Below, one piece after another: positions 31,430 through 38,274 of a stretch of 44,928 nucleotides of DNA. The notes under the pieces were generated by a model. The model was not told the origin of the DNA. It was given only the letters and a program-made list of their open reading frames with translations, and did not search any database. The stretch comes from Candidatus Fermentibacterota bacterium (GTDB lineage Bacteria; Fermentibacterota; Fermentibacteria; Fermentibacterales; JCC-6), in contig QNDR01000008.1 of the NCBI GenBank assembly GCA_003646025.1, positions 1 to 44,928 of the forward strand, given 5' to 3'. Within the stretch, counting starts at the first letter, position 1; each line of letters starts with the position of its first letter. The translations under genes were made by a program, and so were the position numbers.

Positions 31430-32398
31430 CTACTCCTTACGAAATGTATCCATGATAATCCAGCCTTCGCGCAGGTAAGGTTCCTTCCTGTGACCGGGAT
31501 TATAAACCTCCATATCAAGAATATACCATACGCCGTCCAAGTCAAGAACCCTGGTTGTAAAAGAGCCGGCATTCAGGTACTCGGGGTTTCTCCAGACACC
31601 GGTGAGTTCCCACCCATGTAACCCATTTTTAACTACGCGAACTGCTGTTATTCTTGCTCTGTCAACCGAATCTGCAGATGCGTCACTGAAAAAGATTCTT
31701 GCCATGGCTTCCCGTGCCAGAATGGCATTTGTTTCTGTGAGTTCAGCGTCAGTGGTCAGTATCCTTATACTGAACAGAAGCAGACACTCTTCATCAGGCT
31801 GCCTCTGATACTGAATGAAACCGTCATCAGGGGACCAGATACGAACAAAATACGACTTTGGCACATTCAATGTGAAACCGAGTGCCTGCAGACTGTCCAT
31901 CCTTTCAGGCGAAGTCATGCTTGTACTCACAAAGCTTTCAAAAATGTAGCTGTTCATCTGATCATTGTATGCGCTTTCCAGCGTATCCGCCAGTCCGGAA
32001 GGAAGCTCAGGAGATGCCGGATCAACAACTACCCCGAAAACATGCTGATCAAGAGACCACACATCCTCACCTCTGTAAATACCGCTGTCTCCTGCTTGAA
32101 GTGCAGATGGTAGCAGATATGTATCTGAAGGATCAACGAGAAAAAGTATTGTTCTTCTGGTTTTCAGAGTTCCCTGGAACTCCGATATTCCTGCGAATGA
32201 GAAACTGAATACCTCTTCAGGATCTACAGTTTCAACAACCAGGTGAAGCTCCTGAAGACCACCCTGGTCAATGAAATCTGCAAGAGAATCACTATAGACA
32301 ACCAGCACACCGTTGATCGGACCGATTGATTCGTGTTTGCAGGAAACACTGAACAGCAGCGTAAAGGCCAATATACCCGGTATTAAGAACCTTTTCAT
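31430..32398 (-). CDS. DUF4837-family lipoprotein
   Basis: A 322-residue lipoprotein with signal peptide and lipobox FSVSC (C20). The body has the pattern of the DUF4837 family known mainly from Bacteroidota and relatives: an N-terminal VVVYSDSL-like start, a middle DVWSLDQHVFGVVV, and a late FVRIWSPDDGFIQY and GLHGWELTGVWRNPEYLNAG. Function unknown. It overlaps the DUF948 gene by 4 nt (ATGA). Confidence 0.75.
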   Translation of the reverse strand: MKRFLIPGILAFTLLFSVSCKHESIGPINGVLVVYSDSLADFIDQGGLQELHLVVETVDPEEVFSFSFAGISEFQGTLKTRRTILFLVDPSDTYLLPSALQAGDSGIYRGEDVWSLDQHVFGVVVDPASPELPSGLADTLESAYNDQMNSYIFESFVSTSMTSPERMDSLQALGFTLNVPKSYFVRIWSPDDGFIQYQRQPDEECLLLFSIRILTTDAELTETNAILAREAMARIFFSDASADSVDRARITAVRVVKNGLHGWELTGVWRNPEYLNAGSFTTRVLDLDGVWYILDMEVYNPGHRKEPYLREGWIIMDTFRKE

Positions 32399-32783: not shown

Positions 32784-34757
32784 TTACCTTCTTAGTATTA
32801 CGATTTCTACCCGTCTGTTCAGAGCTCTTCCCGCTTCATCGTCGTTGGCAGCTGCAGGTCTTCGTTCTCCAAACCAGATAGGTTCTATTTCTATGTTGTA
32901 ATCACTGAGCTGGGATTCAAGGTACGCAGCCACATTCAAAGCCCGCTCTGTTGAAAGCCCGTCATTAAAACCGAATGTTCCATCACTGTCTGCATGGCCC
33001 TCCACTGAAACGAACACACCGGGGTTGTTCTTCAGTGTCTGAACAACTCTGTCAAGATCCGGATACTGATCTTCCCGTATTTCCGCCACTGCATTGTCAA
33101 AGTAGATAGTTGACATGGAGAGACCCTCCCGCTCTCGGGCCACGATCATGAACTGGAACAGGTTGATGGGATCTGTTTCGTAATACAGGTAATTCAGGTC
33201 TTCATCGATCTGCCTGCAGTTTACATCCAGAGGAACGCCTCCCCTGACTCTGGTAAGACCCAGTGTTTCCGGATCAATTCTGTTTCTGTCCATCCATACC
33301 TTGTCTACCCTGAAACTGAGACTGGCCTCTATGATATCAACGCTGTCTACAGCACCGTACACAGTTTCAGGTTCAACCATTACCAGTTCCGCATGCCTTG
33401 CAGATATGAGAAAATCTCCTATGTGATCTACAGAGGCCTCAAAATAGTAGTATCCCTCATCTTCGTCTATAAGCGCTGCTGGCATTCTTACAAGAGTATT
33501 ATCACTCTCCACCCGAAAAAGTCTGAGCAGCCGCAGCTCCAGATTATTCTGTTCAAGCCAGTATCGGGGTATCCTGAAGCCAACGGAAAGATCCCTTATA
33601 TCTTCTTCGGTAAATGTTGCTCTCGATGGGAAATAAGCGTACAGCACCTGCTTTTCATCAAGTTTGAGTGTACTGTTAAGCGGTATCTGATCGTACTGAG
33701 CCATGGTCAGGGAATCATTCTGCACATCTCTGTTTGCCCACAGGCTCACTTCATACAGGTCTGTTCCAGTATCCCAGGTTCTTCTGTCCACAAGAGGTGG
33801 AAGGGGCGCCCTTGGCTCGTTTTCATACCACGGGGAGCCTCCGAATCTGAATGTAAGGCCCGCTCTGTGCCTGCCCCATGTTGACTGAAGATCGTTCATT
33901 GGAAGAGAAAATGCATAGTCGAAAGAAACCGGAACTGCTCCCTCATATCTGGCTGACAGACCAGCAGAGAGTTCAGATGTTCTTCCCATCGTTCTTGCCC
34001 TGTAACCAGCTCTGAGCCCCCATGTAGATGAAGTTCCAAGCCACTTCTCCAGTCCCATGGCGAAATCTATATCCCGCTGTCCGTCTACGTCATCCATAGA
34101 CCAGTCAACCTGGAGTACAGGTGTAATAAATCTGGGGTAAAAAGCTGCGCCAAGGGAAACTTCCACTGGAAGAACATCCTGTTCGCCTATACCCATATCT
34201 GGAGCAATCAAATTCCGGGCAACCCCGGCAAGGGTAACCCGCCTGCCCAGTTCCGCCTGAAATCCAAAGTCGGCGGAAACGGCCTTTGTCCGCAGACCAG
34301 CATCGGCAAAAAGAGGGTCATAGGAGGTAAACTCGTTGTCTACATACTGTCTGAACATGTAACGGCCATTGAAACCGAAAGAAACAGGAAAAATGCCCGG
34401 CCTGAATGCCACAGCGAGAAGTCCTTCCCCCTGGGTGCACTGGTCGGACGCATTCATAAAGTCAGCCCCCAGCCCGAAAGCCACGAACCTGGTAACAGGC
34501 TGAACATACCCCACTGCACCGTAATTTATAGAATTCAGATCCATGTTGGGATAAAAGCTTGTGTACTCTGTTCCAATCAGTAGTCTACCGGATCTGAGAA
34601 GCCCTGCAGGGTTCCACCACTGAGCCCACGCATCGTCGGCAAGAGCGATAAACGCACCTGCCATTCCCATTGCTCTGGCTCCTGGATTGAGAACATCGGA
34701 AACGGCTGATGAAGACACAACAAAAACCAGTGCTATTGTAATTATCTTGCTATACAT
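32784..34757 (-). CDS. Outer-membrane PorV-like / PGF-pre-PGF-like / OmpA fusion protein
   Basis: A 657-residue outer-membrane protein. After a signal peptide, about 20-310 is a PorV/UPF0164-like beta-barrel, with its N-terminal signature PGARAMGMAGAFIALADDAW and WNPAGLL. Two copies of a domain resembling PGF-pre-PGF (about 365-455 and 460-545; for example LSVGFRIPRYWLEQNN and YYYFEASVDHIGDFLIS) follow. The C-terminal 110 residues are an OmpA peptidoglycan-binding domain (IYFDNAVAEI, VSVEGHADSDGTFGFNDGLS, RALNRRVEIVI). The ATG lies 16 nt inside the end of the protease gene, so it is translationally coupled. In type IX secretion PorV carries cargo to the cell surface; a similar role is inference. 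Confidence 0.83.
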   Translation of the reverse strand: MYSKIITIALVFVVSSSAVSDVLNPGARAMGMAGAFIALADDAWAQWWNPAGLLRSGRLLIGTEYTSFYPNMDLNSINYGAVGYVQPVTRFVAFGLGADFMNASDQCTQGEGLLAVAFRPGIFPVSFGFNGRYMFRQYVDNEFTSYDPLFADAGLRTKAVSADFGFQAELGRRVTLAGVARNLIAPDMGIGEQDVLPVEVSLGAAFYPRFITPVLQVDWSMDDVDGQRDIDFAMGLEKWLGTSSTWGLRAGYRARTMGRTSELSAGLSARYEGAVPVSFDYAFSLPMNDLQSTWGRHRAGLTFRFGGSPWYENEPRAPLPPLVDRRTWDTGTDLYEVSLWANRDVQNDSLTMAQYDQIPLNSTLKLDEKQVLYAYFPSRATFTEEDIRDLSVGFRIPRYWLEQNNLELRLLRLFRVESDNTLVRMPAALIDEDEGYYYFEASVDHIGDFLISARHAELVMVEPETVYGAVDSVDIIEASLSFRVDKVWMDRNRIDPETLGLTRVRGGVPLDVNCRQIDEDLNYLYYETDPINLFQFMIVAREREGLSMSTIYFDNAVAEIREDQYPDLDRVVQTLKNNPGVFVSVEGHADSDGTFGFNDGLSTERALNVAAYLESQLSDYNIEIEPIWFGERRPAAANDDEAGRALNRRVEIVILRR

Positions 34758-37700
34758 ACTGTTCCCGTCACCTCCCCCACTGGAGCGGAAGCATGGAAAA
34801 TGTAAACCCCGGATGGCACAGGATGTCCAGTGTTGTCATTCCCGTTCCACACAGGTTCCGTGTTTGTGATTTCTCTAACGGGTACACCTTCAATGTTCAT
34901 GAGAATCAGCCTGATAACTGCACCATCCGCTGCGGGCCACACGAAAGAAGCCGTATCGTTAACTCCATCTCCGTTGGGAGTAAACGGTGTAGGTATAACT
35001 GTTAAGCCCGGGGGAAATTTCCTGATAAGCCCGATATCGAACTCAGTGTGCTGGTTCTCCTCCACTGCAGCAGTGTCTAGAAAAAGCACGTACGACTCCT
35101 GATCAATGTTTATAGGAACAGCCCCGACAGGGACATCCCCGAAGTAGTAGTAACCGTTGTTGTCTGTTTCGGCTGTAACGCCAAGACCAAGAATGGAGAC
35201 GATAATATCCTCAAGGTTGTGCCCTGTGTACACATCTGTTACTGTTCCCCCCAGAGAACCCGATGGTCCCTGTGCCGTTGCTGAAGCCATGTTGCTCAAG
35301 GGGCTCTCTCCATCAGGTGCTGTGTACACGCAGGTCGCCCAGTAGTAGTATCCGATTCCGTTTACAACCAGAGAATCAGTCCAGAACAGAGTATTTGAGC
35401 CAAGCTCAGCAACCGGATCCGGTTCCGGAGCCACAGGATTTACAGACCGGTACAACCTGTAGGATGTAAGACCACGGCTATCTACAGCCTGGGGTGGTTC
35501 CCAGGTCATTGGAATAAATCCGTTGTTACCGCTTACCGCAACCAGATTAACAGGAGGAGCAAATTCACCAGCTACGGTGAACGGACCGTAGACAGATGTG
35601 TTGTTCGTTTCATCGTTCTCTGTTACAACAGAGTTGGGATCGACCACACTGACCAGGTACCTGCTTCCTATATCAAAATACGTAAAAGTGTAATTGCTTT
35701 TGAAAGAAGCTGTTTCCCCGCTCTCAAGAGGAGGCACCTCAAACATCATAATTTGCTGAGAAAGTGAATCAGGACGATCTGTGATGTAGTACGCAAGCTG
35801 AGATGCAGGTGATGGACCGTCTCCATCGTTGCTTACAACAACACTGAAACCAACTGTCTGTTCGGCTTCAAATGGAGGCTGTACATCAGGTGATGCAATG
35901 GAAACTGTCAGATCCGGGTAAGCCAGAACGATGGTAAACTGACTGGAAGCGTCTTCAAGACCCCGATTTCCTGCACCGGCAAAAACATCAACGGTGTGAG
36001 TACCCGGCTGGTTGGGACACTGAATACTGAACTCCGCCGATGCGGTTGAGTTCTTGTAAACCAGGTTACCCATAAAAGCAGGAACATCAACATCACCGGA
36101 GAACGCAGATGGCGGGTGAAGGCTTGCCCATGCTCCCACCGCAACATATCCGCCAGCATTGGTAATGGTAACTGGAATAGTAAGCTCACCTCCAGGAGGT
36201 GCATAGATAGTCGTATCCACGGGAAATGAAACAGCCAATTCCGGATCTCTGGCAAACCTGTAAGCTGCAATGGCAAACTGCTGCTGCTCCGACGGGTTTC
36301 CGGGATCTGCCCAGGAAACCCCTTCAACCTTTACGCTCCATGCTCCAGGCTCCGGGTTTTCAACCACGATCCTTTCCACTGGACTGGGAGATGTTACCCC
36401 TGAAGGCAGCTGGTAGGTGTACTCTACATTGCTTGGAGAAACCAGAGTTACATCAAGATCAACCTGCAGGTCAGGAGAAACAGAAGGAACATCTGAGTAT
36501 CCCAGACCAAGAGAAATCCAGCTCGTGTACGCAGGAACATACATCGTCCACTGCTTCTGACCGGTTCCTTCAATTATGCTGGAATTTATCCACATAAGCC
36601 GGTCAACTTCCTCCGAGAAGTATGTGCCGGGAAGATGATACCCATCCAGAAGCCCGTATCCGCTTGACACAGTTGCATACCCTGACAGAGAAGAACCTGT
36701 ATTGCTTTTCAGGGGAATCGCACACGCTGCCATAAGGGCCATGGCATCTTCAGGATTAAAAAGATTCCCGTATTTTTCCTCACATATAGCTAGAGCCGAA
36801 GACACAAAAGCAGCAGCCATGCTGGTTCCCGTATACCTGGTGTAGGATGGTTCACCTGGCCACCTGTTTTCAGGATCGTCAAGCCATTGTCCACCGTAAA
36901 AGGCATTTGTCGTTGCCACACCGTTCTGCATGGTTGCCCCCAGGAAAGCACCACCCGGTGCCAGTATCTCCGGTTTCATCCGGCCGTCTGATGTGGGTCC
37001 TCTTCCACTGTAGGGTGCTACCACCATATTACCGCTGCTGTCCGGAAGAAATGTTACTGCCCCTGCGGTTACTGCATTTCTTGAAATTGCCGGTGAAGGG
37101 ATTGCACCTGGAGACGGGTTATTGCCTGAGCTGAAAACAGCCAGCCCACCGTTCCTGCCGTAGGTGTCTACAACCTGACAGAACCCGTCGTAAGTGGTTG
37201 ATCCGTCAAAACCCCAGGAATTGTTCACAGTGTAACAGTCGTTAGAATAGAATTCCGTATAGAATGCGGCAAACTGCGCAGCAGTCATGGATTCCGGTCG
37301 CTGAATCACATAAAGCTGTACGTCCGGTGCTCCGCCGCTTCCATTGTATTCGCATCCCAGATCAACCTGCCCCCTTGAAGCAACAACTCCGCAAACGGCA
37401 GTCCCGTGCCCTGACGGGTCTGCCGGGCCGGACACGATAGAACCTGCGAGATCCGGATGCTCTGACCATACACCGGTGTCAAGAACGCCTATACGAACCC
37501 CAAGACCTGTGTAGTAGTTCCACAGACCAGGCAATCCTGTTACCTCCCTGCTGTCGTCGGCCTGAGCGTTAACCGCATGATTAACCGCAATTTCTGCTGT
37601 GTTGGGAATTGCTGTGACAACACCTTCTGCAACCGGGGCCGAAACCAGCCACCACTTATCGGAAATGGCAATGCCGCCTTCCGGGACAAAACCCGGAGCC

Positions 37701-38155
37701 ATTGAAACAAGCCAGTCTCCAGTCCAGCTTCTGTCGCCGGGGGCAACTGCGTCATCCCATGACCACACCGAAACAGATTTTGCAAAACCGTAACCCCGGA
37801 GAAGATTTAAATCGGTTTTCTCACCTGCAACAGCTACAAAAGCAGATGAAGACGGAGCAAATCCTGACGGCCAGAAACCTGCCCGGTCAAGAACGGCCAG
37901 ATCACCCGGGGTAAGAGACCTGTAGACATCTATAAGCACCAGGCTGCCCTCAGCAACAGAAAAAGAACCTGTAAGAAGAGGTCCAGATCCGAAATCCAGC
38001 TGCATGTAGTGTGTGTTTAACTCTGCAAGAACAGTCTGCCTTTCGGAATATTCCATCAGGGCCAGTTCCTGCATCGACACCTGATCAGACAACTCAAGAA
38101 CAGGATAATCTACAGCGGAAAAGAAAGCCAAAAGCAAGACAGAAAATACAGCCAT
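34742..38155 (-). CDS. Secreted subtilisin-like serine protease with FlgD-like C-terminal domain
   Basis: A 1137-residue exported S8 protease. Signal peptide at the start (ATG 38155, 8 nt after GGAG). Catalytic triad D226 (VLDTGVWSEHPDL), H250 (PSGHGTAVCGVV) and S445 (YTGTSMAAAFVSSA), with the oxyanion asparagine in VNNSWGFDG. Then a proprotein-convertase-like beta domain (about 525-640), CARDB-like repeats (about 770-880, VSNDGDGPSP and DENDETNN), a fibronectin III-like domain, a carboxypeptidase regulatory-like domain (GGTVTDVYTGHNLEDI), and a C-terminal CHU_C/FlgD-like domain (FTPNGDGVND to VPSGVYIFHA), used as a sorting or anchoring signal in FCB bacteria. It shares an operon with the PorV-like gene. 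Confidence 0.92.
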   Translation of the reverse strand: MAVFSVLLLAFFSAVDYPVLELSDQVSMQELALMEYSERQTVLAELNTHYMQLDFGSGPLLTGSFSVAEGSLVLIDVYRSLTPGDLAVLDRAGFWPSGFAPSSSAFVAVAGEKTDLNLLRGYGFAKSVSVWSWDDAVAPGDRSWTGDWLVSMAPGFVPEGGIAISDKWWLVSAPVAEGVVTAIPNTAEIAVNHAVNAQADDSREVTGLPGLWNYYTGLGVRIGVLDTGVWSEHPDLAGSIVSGPADPSGHGTAVCGVVASRGQVDLGCEYNGSGGAPDVQLYVIQRPESMTAAQFAAFYTEFYSNDCYTVNNSWGFDGSTTYDGFCQVVDTYGRNGGLAVFSSGNNPSPGAIPSPAISRNAVTAGAVTFLPDSSGNMVVAPYSGRGPTSDGRMKPEILAPGGAFLGATMQNGVATTNAFYGGQWLDDPENRWPGEPSYTRYTGTSMAAAFVSSALAICEEKYGNLFNPEDAMALMAACAIPLKSNTGSSLSGYATVSSGYGLLDGYHLPGTYFSEEVDRLMWINSSIIEGTGQKQWTMYVPAYTSWISLGLGYSDVPSVSPDLQVDLDVTLVSPSNVEYTYQLPSGVTSPSPVERIVVENPEPGAWSVKVEGVSWADPGNPSEQQQFAIAAYRFARDPELAVSFPVDTTIYAPPGGELTIPVTITNAGGYVAVGAWASLHPPSAFSGDVDVPAFMGNLVYKNSTASAEFSIQCPNQPGTHTVDVFAGAGNRGLEDASSQFTIVLAYPDLTVSIASPDVQPPFEAEQTVGFSVVVSNDGDGPSPASQLAYYITDRPDSLSQQIMMFEVPPLESGETASFKSNYTFTYFDIGSRYLVSVVDPNSVVTENDETNNTSVYGPFTVAGEFAPPVNLVAVSGNNGFIPMTWEPPQAVDSRGLTSYRLYRSVNPVAPEPDPVAELGSNTLFWTDSLVVNGIGYYYWATCVYTAPDGESPLSNMASATAQGPSGSLGGTVTDVYTGHNLEDIIVSILGLGVTAETDNNGYYYFGDVPVGAVPINIDQESYVLFLDTAAVEENQHTEFDIGLIRKFPPGLTVIPTPFTPNGDGVNDTASFVWPAADGAVIRLILMNIEGVPVREITNTEPVWNGNDNTGHPVPSGVYIFHASAPVGEVTGTVCIAR

Positions 38156-38229
38156 TGTTACCACTCCTGTTGCAGTTAATCGTATGTAGAGAGATACTAT
38201 AAATGAGACTGGTTCGTCAACCGCATAAT

Positions 38230-38274
38230 AAAAAAAAAGAACCAGAGCAATAGCCGCTTGATTGCTCTGGTTCT
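38230..38274 (-). terminator. Rho-independent terminator of the pur-rng-rplU-folD operon
   Basis: A perfect 14-bp stem (38238-38251 with 38261-38274) and 9-nt loop, followed on the minus strand by nine T residues (38238-38230). It is 13 bp beyond the folD stop. Confidence 0.93.

Follow-up and report, generated by a model that had tools for sequence, protein, structure and literature searches.

The window analysed here, a stretch of 44,928 nucleotides from a MAG of Candidatus Fermentibacterota (a phylum within the FCB group; the MAG is 90% complete and comprises 136 contigs), contains on its minus strand a gene for a secreted S8 protease of 1137 aa, counted from its ATG (34742..38155), and directly downstream of it a gene for a 657-aa protein (32784..34757) in which a putative outer membrane carrier is fused to a putative wall anchor. 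The relatives used for comparison are Ca. Fermentibacterota MAGs as well, several of which carry the name Ca. Sabulitectum. As proposed in a first-pass annotation of this DNA, the ATG of the fusion gene lies 16 nt inside the 3' end of the protease gene, and this overlap (34742..34757, minus strand; pattern ATGNNTNGCAAGRTRR) was found identically at the junctions of all 15 relatives inspected. The protease reading frame is open also from a GTG at 38164; the ATG at 38155, the start assigned originally, is more likely judging by its better placement, because an AGGAG motif stands 8 nt upstream of it. Further upstream, a promoter-like element (TTGACG ... TTTATAGTATCT; 38192..38220, minus strand) is conserved within the genus, where it precedes the protease, and also in the relative G033, which lacks both genes and in which it precedes the gene of a 123-aa protein; a consensus promoter scan gives no match at this position. 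A hairpin followed by a T-run 3' of folD (38229..38274, minus strand; -20.7 kcal/mol, z -5.0) resembles an intrinsic terminator and is missing from the consensus terminator scan because its loop measures 9 nt, the scan being limited to 8. On the other side of the pair, a gene for a DUF4837 protein (39.2 bits; 31430-32398, minus strand) forms a conserved block with the genes of the 123-aa membrane protein, a TPR protein and efp, and this block occurs phylum-wide, whether the pair is present or absent.

The protease combines a peptidase S8 domain (36701..37501, minus strand, as are all domains described here; PF00082, 128 bits) with a CARDB domain (35597..35917; PF07705, 55.7 bits), a CarboxypepD_reg-like domain (35030..35254; PF13620, 29.5 bits, under the cut-off of 32.3) and a C-terminal sorting domain that resembles type B T9SS tails (34745..34996). 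The catalytic triad is complete (D229, H253 and S448, together with N348, in the numbering from the GTG) and invariant in 15 orthologues, and S8, CARDB, CarboxypepD_reg, CHU_C and TIGR04131 (the last at E<=0.01) were matched in each of the 15 orthologues scanned. The tail had been described as being of FlgD/CHU_C type; it scores 28.2 bits against CHU_C (PF13585; cut-off 27), and a PDB search with it returned weak matches only, FlgD among them. Against the type B model TIGR04131 it remains under the cut-off of 35, at 22.9 bits when the protein alone is scanned and 28.1 bits in the genome search. The signal peptide of the protease has a hydrophobic core and, as a small caveat, no basic residue at its front.

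The fusion protein starts with a signal peptide predicted by eye from the sequence (MYSKIITIALVFVVSSSAVSD; aa 1-21, 34695..34757), followed by a PorV/PorQ-like beta-barrel (aa 22-306, 33840..34694), two PGF-pre-PGF domains (33402..33614 for the profile-matched part of the first and 33141..33347 for the second) and an OmpA-type peptidoglycan-binding domain (aa 549-655, 32793..33113). From the barrel onwards this is the architecture read initially from the sequence, and its parts were recovered by profile searches at differing strength. The barrel scores under the cut-offs of both PorV-family models (68.3 bits versus 90 for NF033709, PorV/PorQ; 22.6 versus 27 for PF19572, PorV); 17 of 18 fusion orthologue rows match this family below E 1e-4, and a search of the fusion with PorP/SprF (PF11751) yielded nothing at E<=1. 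The OmpA domain (PF00691, aa 552-648) reaches 49.6 bits versus a cut-off of 27.2, conserves the motifs GH.-SDG and ND.LS..RA among the orthologues and resembles Pal and OmpA structures both by sequence and by fold. The C-terminal domain of PorE is also among its fold matches, lower in the list, and the PorE model NF052230 matches the fusion with 38.7 bits versus a cut-off of 600, essentially over the OmpA part. The AlphaFold models are of low confidence, with a mean pLDDT of 50 for the whole fusion and 63 for linker and anchor, and were used for their coarse features alone, among them 14 strands spread over aa 58-305.

T9SS export is plausible in this organism, judging from its gene content, because the genome encodes SprA, PorV-family and PorU-like proteins together with type A tailed proteins. 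The presence of sov/sprA, for which the first-pass annotation had proposed a genome search, is supported (SprA of 1892 aa; TIGR04189, 418 bits versus a cut-off of 200), and a PorV-family protein of 330 aa scores 236 bits versus 90. For porU and gldM the outcome is less clear: two PorU-like C25 proteins score 391.5 and 354 bits and thus stay under the cut-off of 420, the better one only just and over nearly its full length, while GldM of the T9SS motor (TIGR03517) gave no match in the genome search, a result that speaks neither for nor against a motor, as the control was silent too. PorP/SprF (PF11751) was found nowhere in the genome, and this model exceeded its cut-off in none of the control genomes either. 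The genome encodes 84 type A tails (E<=0.01), whereas the type B model TIGR04131 matches in one place only, the S8 protease, which would make the protease the odd cargo out. No report of a T9SS in Fermentibacteria or Sabulitectum was found in the literature searched. Several other loci of the host genome (G000) carry related genes. On contig C62 (286-10109), a PorV-family gene overlaps by 1 nt the gene of an M6-like, possibly inactivated T9SS metalloprotease, and further along the same contig are encoded a 540-aa protein with a type A tail and a 1038-aa protein weakly similar to part of SprA; on contig C3 (6001-12000), a PorV/PorQ-family gene lies near ExbB- and ExbD-like genes. In the sister genus, a protein of about 1207 aa with a weak TIGR04131 match is widespread. 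Since no PorV-like neighbour of this protein was seen in the sister-genome loci read, adjacency to a PorV-like gene appears to be particular to the protease and the fusion.

The same gene pair was indeed found in relatives. Among 42 genomes of the phylum, 19 have both genes and 22 have neither; the remaining one, G038, has a protease gene cut by the end of its contig, so that the fusion is counted in 19 and the protease in 20 of the 42. In the pair-less genomes read, folD adjoins the 123-aa gene with 100-200 nt between them, with the exception of G009, where the gap measures about 1.5 kb and holds, at about 6400-7950 of contig C91, a PIN-domain/AbrB-like gene pair of toxin-antitoxin type at the site occupied by the protease and fusion genes in relatives. 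The gene order around the pair is conserved throughout. Mapped onto a tree built from four genes of the neighbourhood, the pair must have been gained or lost six times or more; well-supported branches enforce this minimum, and each change involves both genes. The protein trees of protease and fusion broadly match this neighbourhood tree. Most simply, the pair would have been gained once, early on, at this site and then lost jointly in repeated events, although several early gains would fit too. Horizontal transfer as the source of the patchy distribution is disfavoured, since the site is always the same and the gene trees broadly follow that of the neighbourhood. Because the genes overlap, a single deletion can remove both, and their joint loss could thus occur without the proteins acting together; the informative point is that in no genome is either gene kept intact without the other.

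In Bacteroidota, PorV takes type A cargo from SprA, while each type B cargo stays bound to a dedicated carrier (PMC12635249) whose gene usually lies next door, downstream of the cargo gene (PMC12635249, PMC12618676). In Porphyromonas gingivalis, pull-downs and cross-links placed the cargo PG1035 in a complex with the barrel PorP and with PorE, which carries an OmpA domain, and such cargo-PorP-PorE complexes tie type B cargo to peptidoglycan (PMC9143113). Five cargo/carrier operons of Flavobacterium johnsoniae also include a PorE homologue, and for this organism a static, wall-anchored form has been put forward explicitly as speculation (PMC12618676). The pair described here shares with PG1035-PorP-PorE and with Fjoh_3952-3951-3950 of F. 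johnsoniae a tailed cargo (type B there, type-B-like here), an outer membrane barrel as the carrier, putative in the present case, and an OmpA-type anchor (PMC9143113, PMC12618676), and the Fjoh_3952-3951-3950 genes lie in one operon (PMC12618676), as those of protease and fusion appear to. It differs in that carrier and anchor form one chain, that the barrel is PorV/PorQ-like instead of PorP/SprF-like, that PGF-pre-PGF spacers stand in place of the TPR, propeller and CRD parts of PorE, and that the cargo is an S8 protease from the phylum Ca. Fermentibacterota. As with SprB-SprF, where the cargo gene is directly followed by that of the dedicated carrier (PMC12618676, PMC12635249), the fusion gene is placed directly downstream of the type-B-like cargo gene; however, SprF has a periplasmic C-terminal tail with a Cys-X-Cys that bonds to GldK (PMC12618676, PMC12635249), whereas the orthologue alignment of the fusion contains no such conserved cysteine pair after the barrel and the protein carries an OmpA anchor instead. 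The barrel would group with the type A carrier PorV (NF033709/NF033710) by profile, with scores under the cut-offs, and by the structural match of a low-confidence model, but canonical PorV has no domain beyond its barrel and acts for type A cargo in general, whereas the fusion diverges in sequence, continues past the barrel and has a single partner cargo. Its order of barrel, linker and OmpA domain recalls OmpA/OprF-type proteins, from which it differs by a 14-strand PorV-like barrel in a low-confidence model, the PGF-pre-PGF linkers and the protease partner.

On the best reading of these comparisons, the pair would be a one-chain counterpart of the Bacteroidota cargo-PorP-PorE complexes. The two genes probably form one unit, in which the protease is a T9SS cargo and the fusion its dedicated carrier, a single polypeptide that also serves as the wall anchor. 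The domain content, the T9SS outer membrane genes, the conserved overlap and the joint gain and loss were seen directly; from these and the Bacteroidota precedent we infer the binding of the cargo by the barrel, the topology and the anchoring to the wall. The earlier proposal, that a cargo is paired here with a dedicated carrier tethered to the wall, is the best supported, by the T9SS core, the behaviour of the pair as a unit and the characterised type B systems, with binding and anchoring staying at the level of prediction. It needs qualifying in that known dedicated type B carriers are PorP/SprF-like, whereas the barrel of the fusion is, by its profile matches, PorV/PorQ-like. Against a cargo and its carrier speak, besides this difference in barrel type, the scores of the barrel under the PorV-family cut-offs, that of the tail under the TIGR04131 cut-off, the poor model (mean pLDDT 50), the failure to find GldM (in a search with an uninformative control) and the chance that overlapping genes are deleted together.

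Alternatively, the protease, exported by the general PorV route, could cut extracellular proteins whose products are then imported by a wall-braced, FadL-like barrel. PorV and FadL share a common fold, and in a Foldseek search with the barrel model (mean pLDDT 50) OmpG and FadL-family barrels follow the top PDB match, with the transporters FadL and TodX among the best; the joint gain and loss of the pair fits this degradation and import equally well. However, the best single match is 8gl6_F, a chain of the T9SS translocon with the RemA CTD. Furthermore, leaving OmpA proteins aside, the fusion has its closest relative within the genome in the PorV-family protein encoded on contig C62 (28%, aa 12-266, E 1e-10), and the tail of the protease resembles type B and thereby stands apart from the 84 tails of type A. 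We therefore regard an import function as unlikely, albeit worth keeping in mind.

It is rather improbable that the fusion serves as a general tether between outer membrane and wall, with the protease a mere operon neighbour that was co-lost only through the gene overlap. Proteins with a barrel, a linker and an OmpA domain are common, and three others of similar length are encoded in the host genome (on contig C23 at about 20 kb and about 2 kb, and on contig C13 at about 33.5 kb), with CarboxypepD_reg in the place of PGF-pre-PGF; the conserved order of the surrounding genes would also suit a chance neighbour. Yet in the 42 genomes none of the at least six gains or losses left one of the genes intact on its own, and dispensability in half of the phylum, only jointly with one particular protease, would be unexpected for a general tether.

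TIGR04213 (PGF_pre_PGF) scores 67.9 bits on the fusion (cut-off 28); the match falls into two stretches, of 37.9 and 34.2 bits, that each span only profile positions 83-152 or so, the second half of the model. The two units are alike, with a local score of 101 versus 48 for the best of 500 shuffles, and the first seems, in the model, to form a beta-sandwich that spans roughly aa 337-455 (pLDDT about 72-85). A PDB search with both domains found no relative up to E=10, and in the literature searched PGF-pre-PGF was found as list entries or asides only. The fusion resembles the TIGR04213 family by its two copies over the cut-off and departs from it by the lack of a following PGF-CTERM, its diderm host and its predicted periplasmic location. 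Outer membrane barrels with an even number of strands have both termini in the periplasm. Since the PGF-pre-PGF domains lie between an even-stranded barrel and the OmpA domain, they and the OmpA domain should, going by the model, face the periplasm, and by this topology they should be periplasmic spacers rather than signals for surface processing; that three other barrel-OmpA proteins carry CarboxypepD_reg at this position supports a spacer role. An archaeal-style processing and anchoring of a surface protein, to which the domains had been linked initially and which draws on the TIGR04213 score and on control matches confined to two archaea among 14 genomes (Haloferax volcanii and Methanosarcina acetivorans), is very improbable indeed, as the match covers the second profile half only, the domains precede a peptidoglycan-binding domain in the predicted periplasm and the protein ends in this OmpA domain with no PGF-CTERM tail.

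For the protease and its putative dedicated carrier, capture of the cargo followed by static display is the most likely mechanism because the pair has the three functions of the Bacteroidota complex in two chains. The protease would cross into the periplasm through Sec, and its type-B-like tail would engage the SprA translocon, where the PorV-like barrel would take the tail as PorV does with type A tails, but retain it. From the periplasmic C-terminus of the barrel, the two beta-rich PGF-pre-PGF spacers would lead to the OmpA domain bound to peptidoglycan, and the protease would thereby be displayed statically, held at a single spot of the cell surface.

With a confidence that falls a little short of even, we propose that the fusion represents a third kind of T9SS carrier, in which a PorV-type barrel, fused as shuttle to a PorE-like anchor, has come to hold just one type-B-like cargo, as its dedicated carrier attached to the wall. 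If so, one gene pair would suffice to fix a protease on the surface, with no need for a sortase or for an additional anchor protein, and the two-gene system would lend itself to testing carrier specificity. That carrier and wall anchor occur naturally as a fusion, passed on as a unit with one cargo, would be independent evidence that both functions belong together; dedicated carriers would then also have arisen in a phylum other than Bacteroidota and from barrels other than PorP/SprF.
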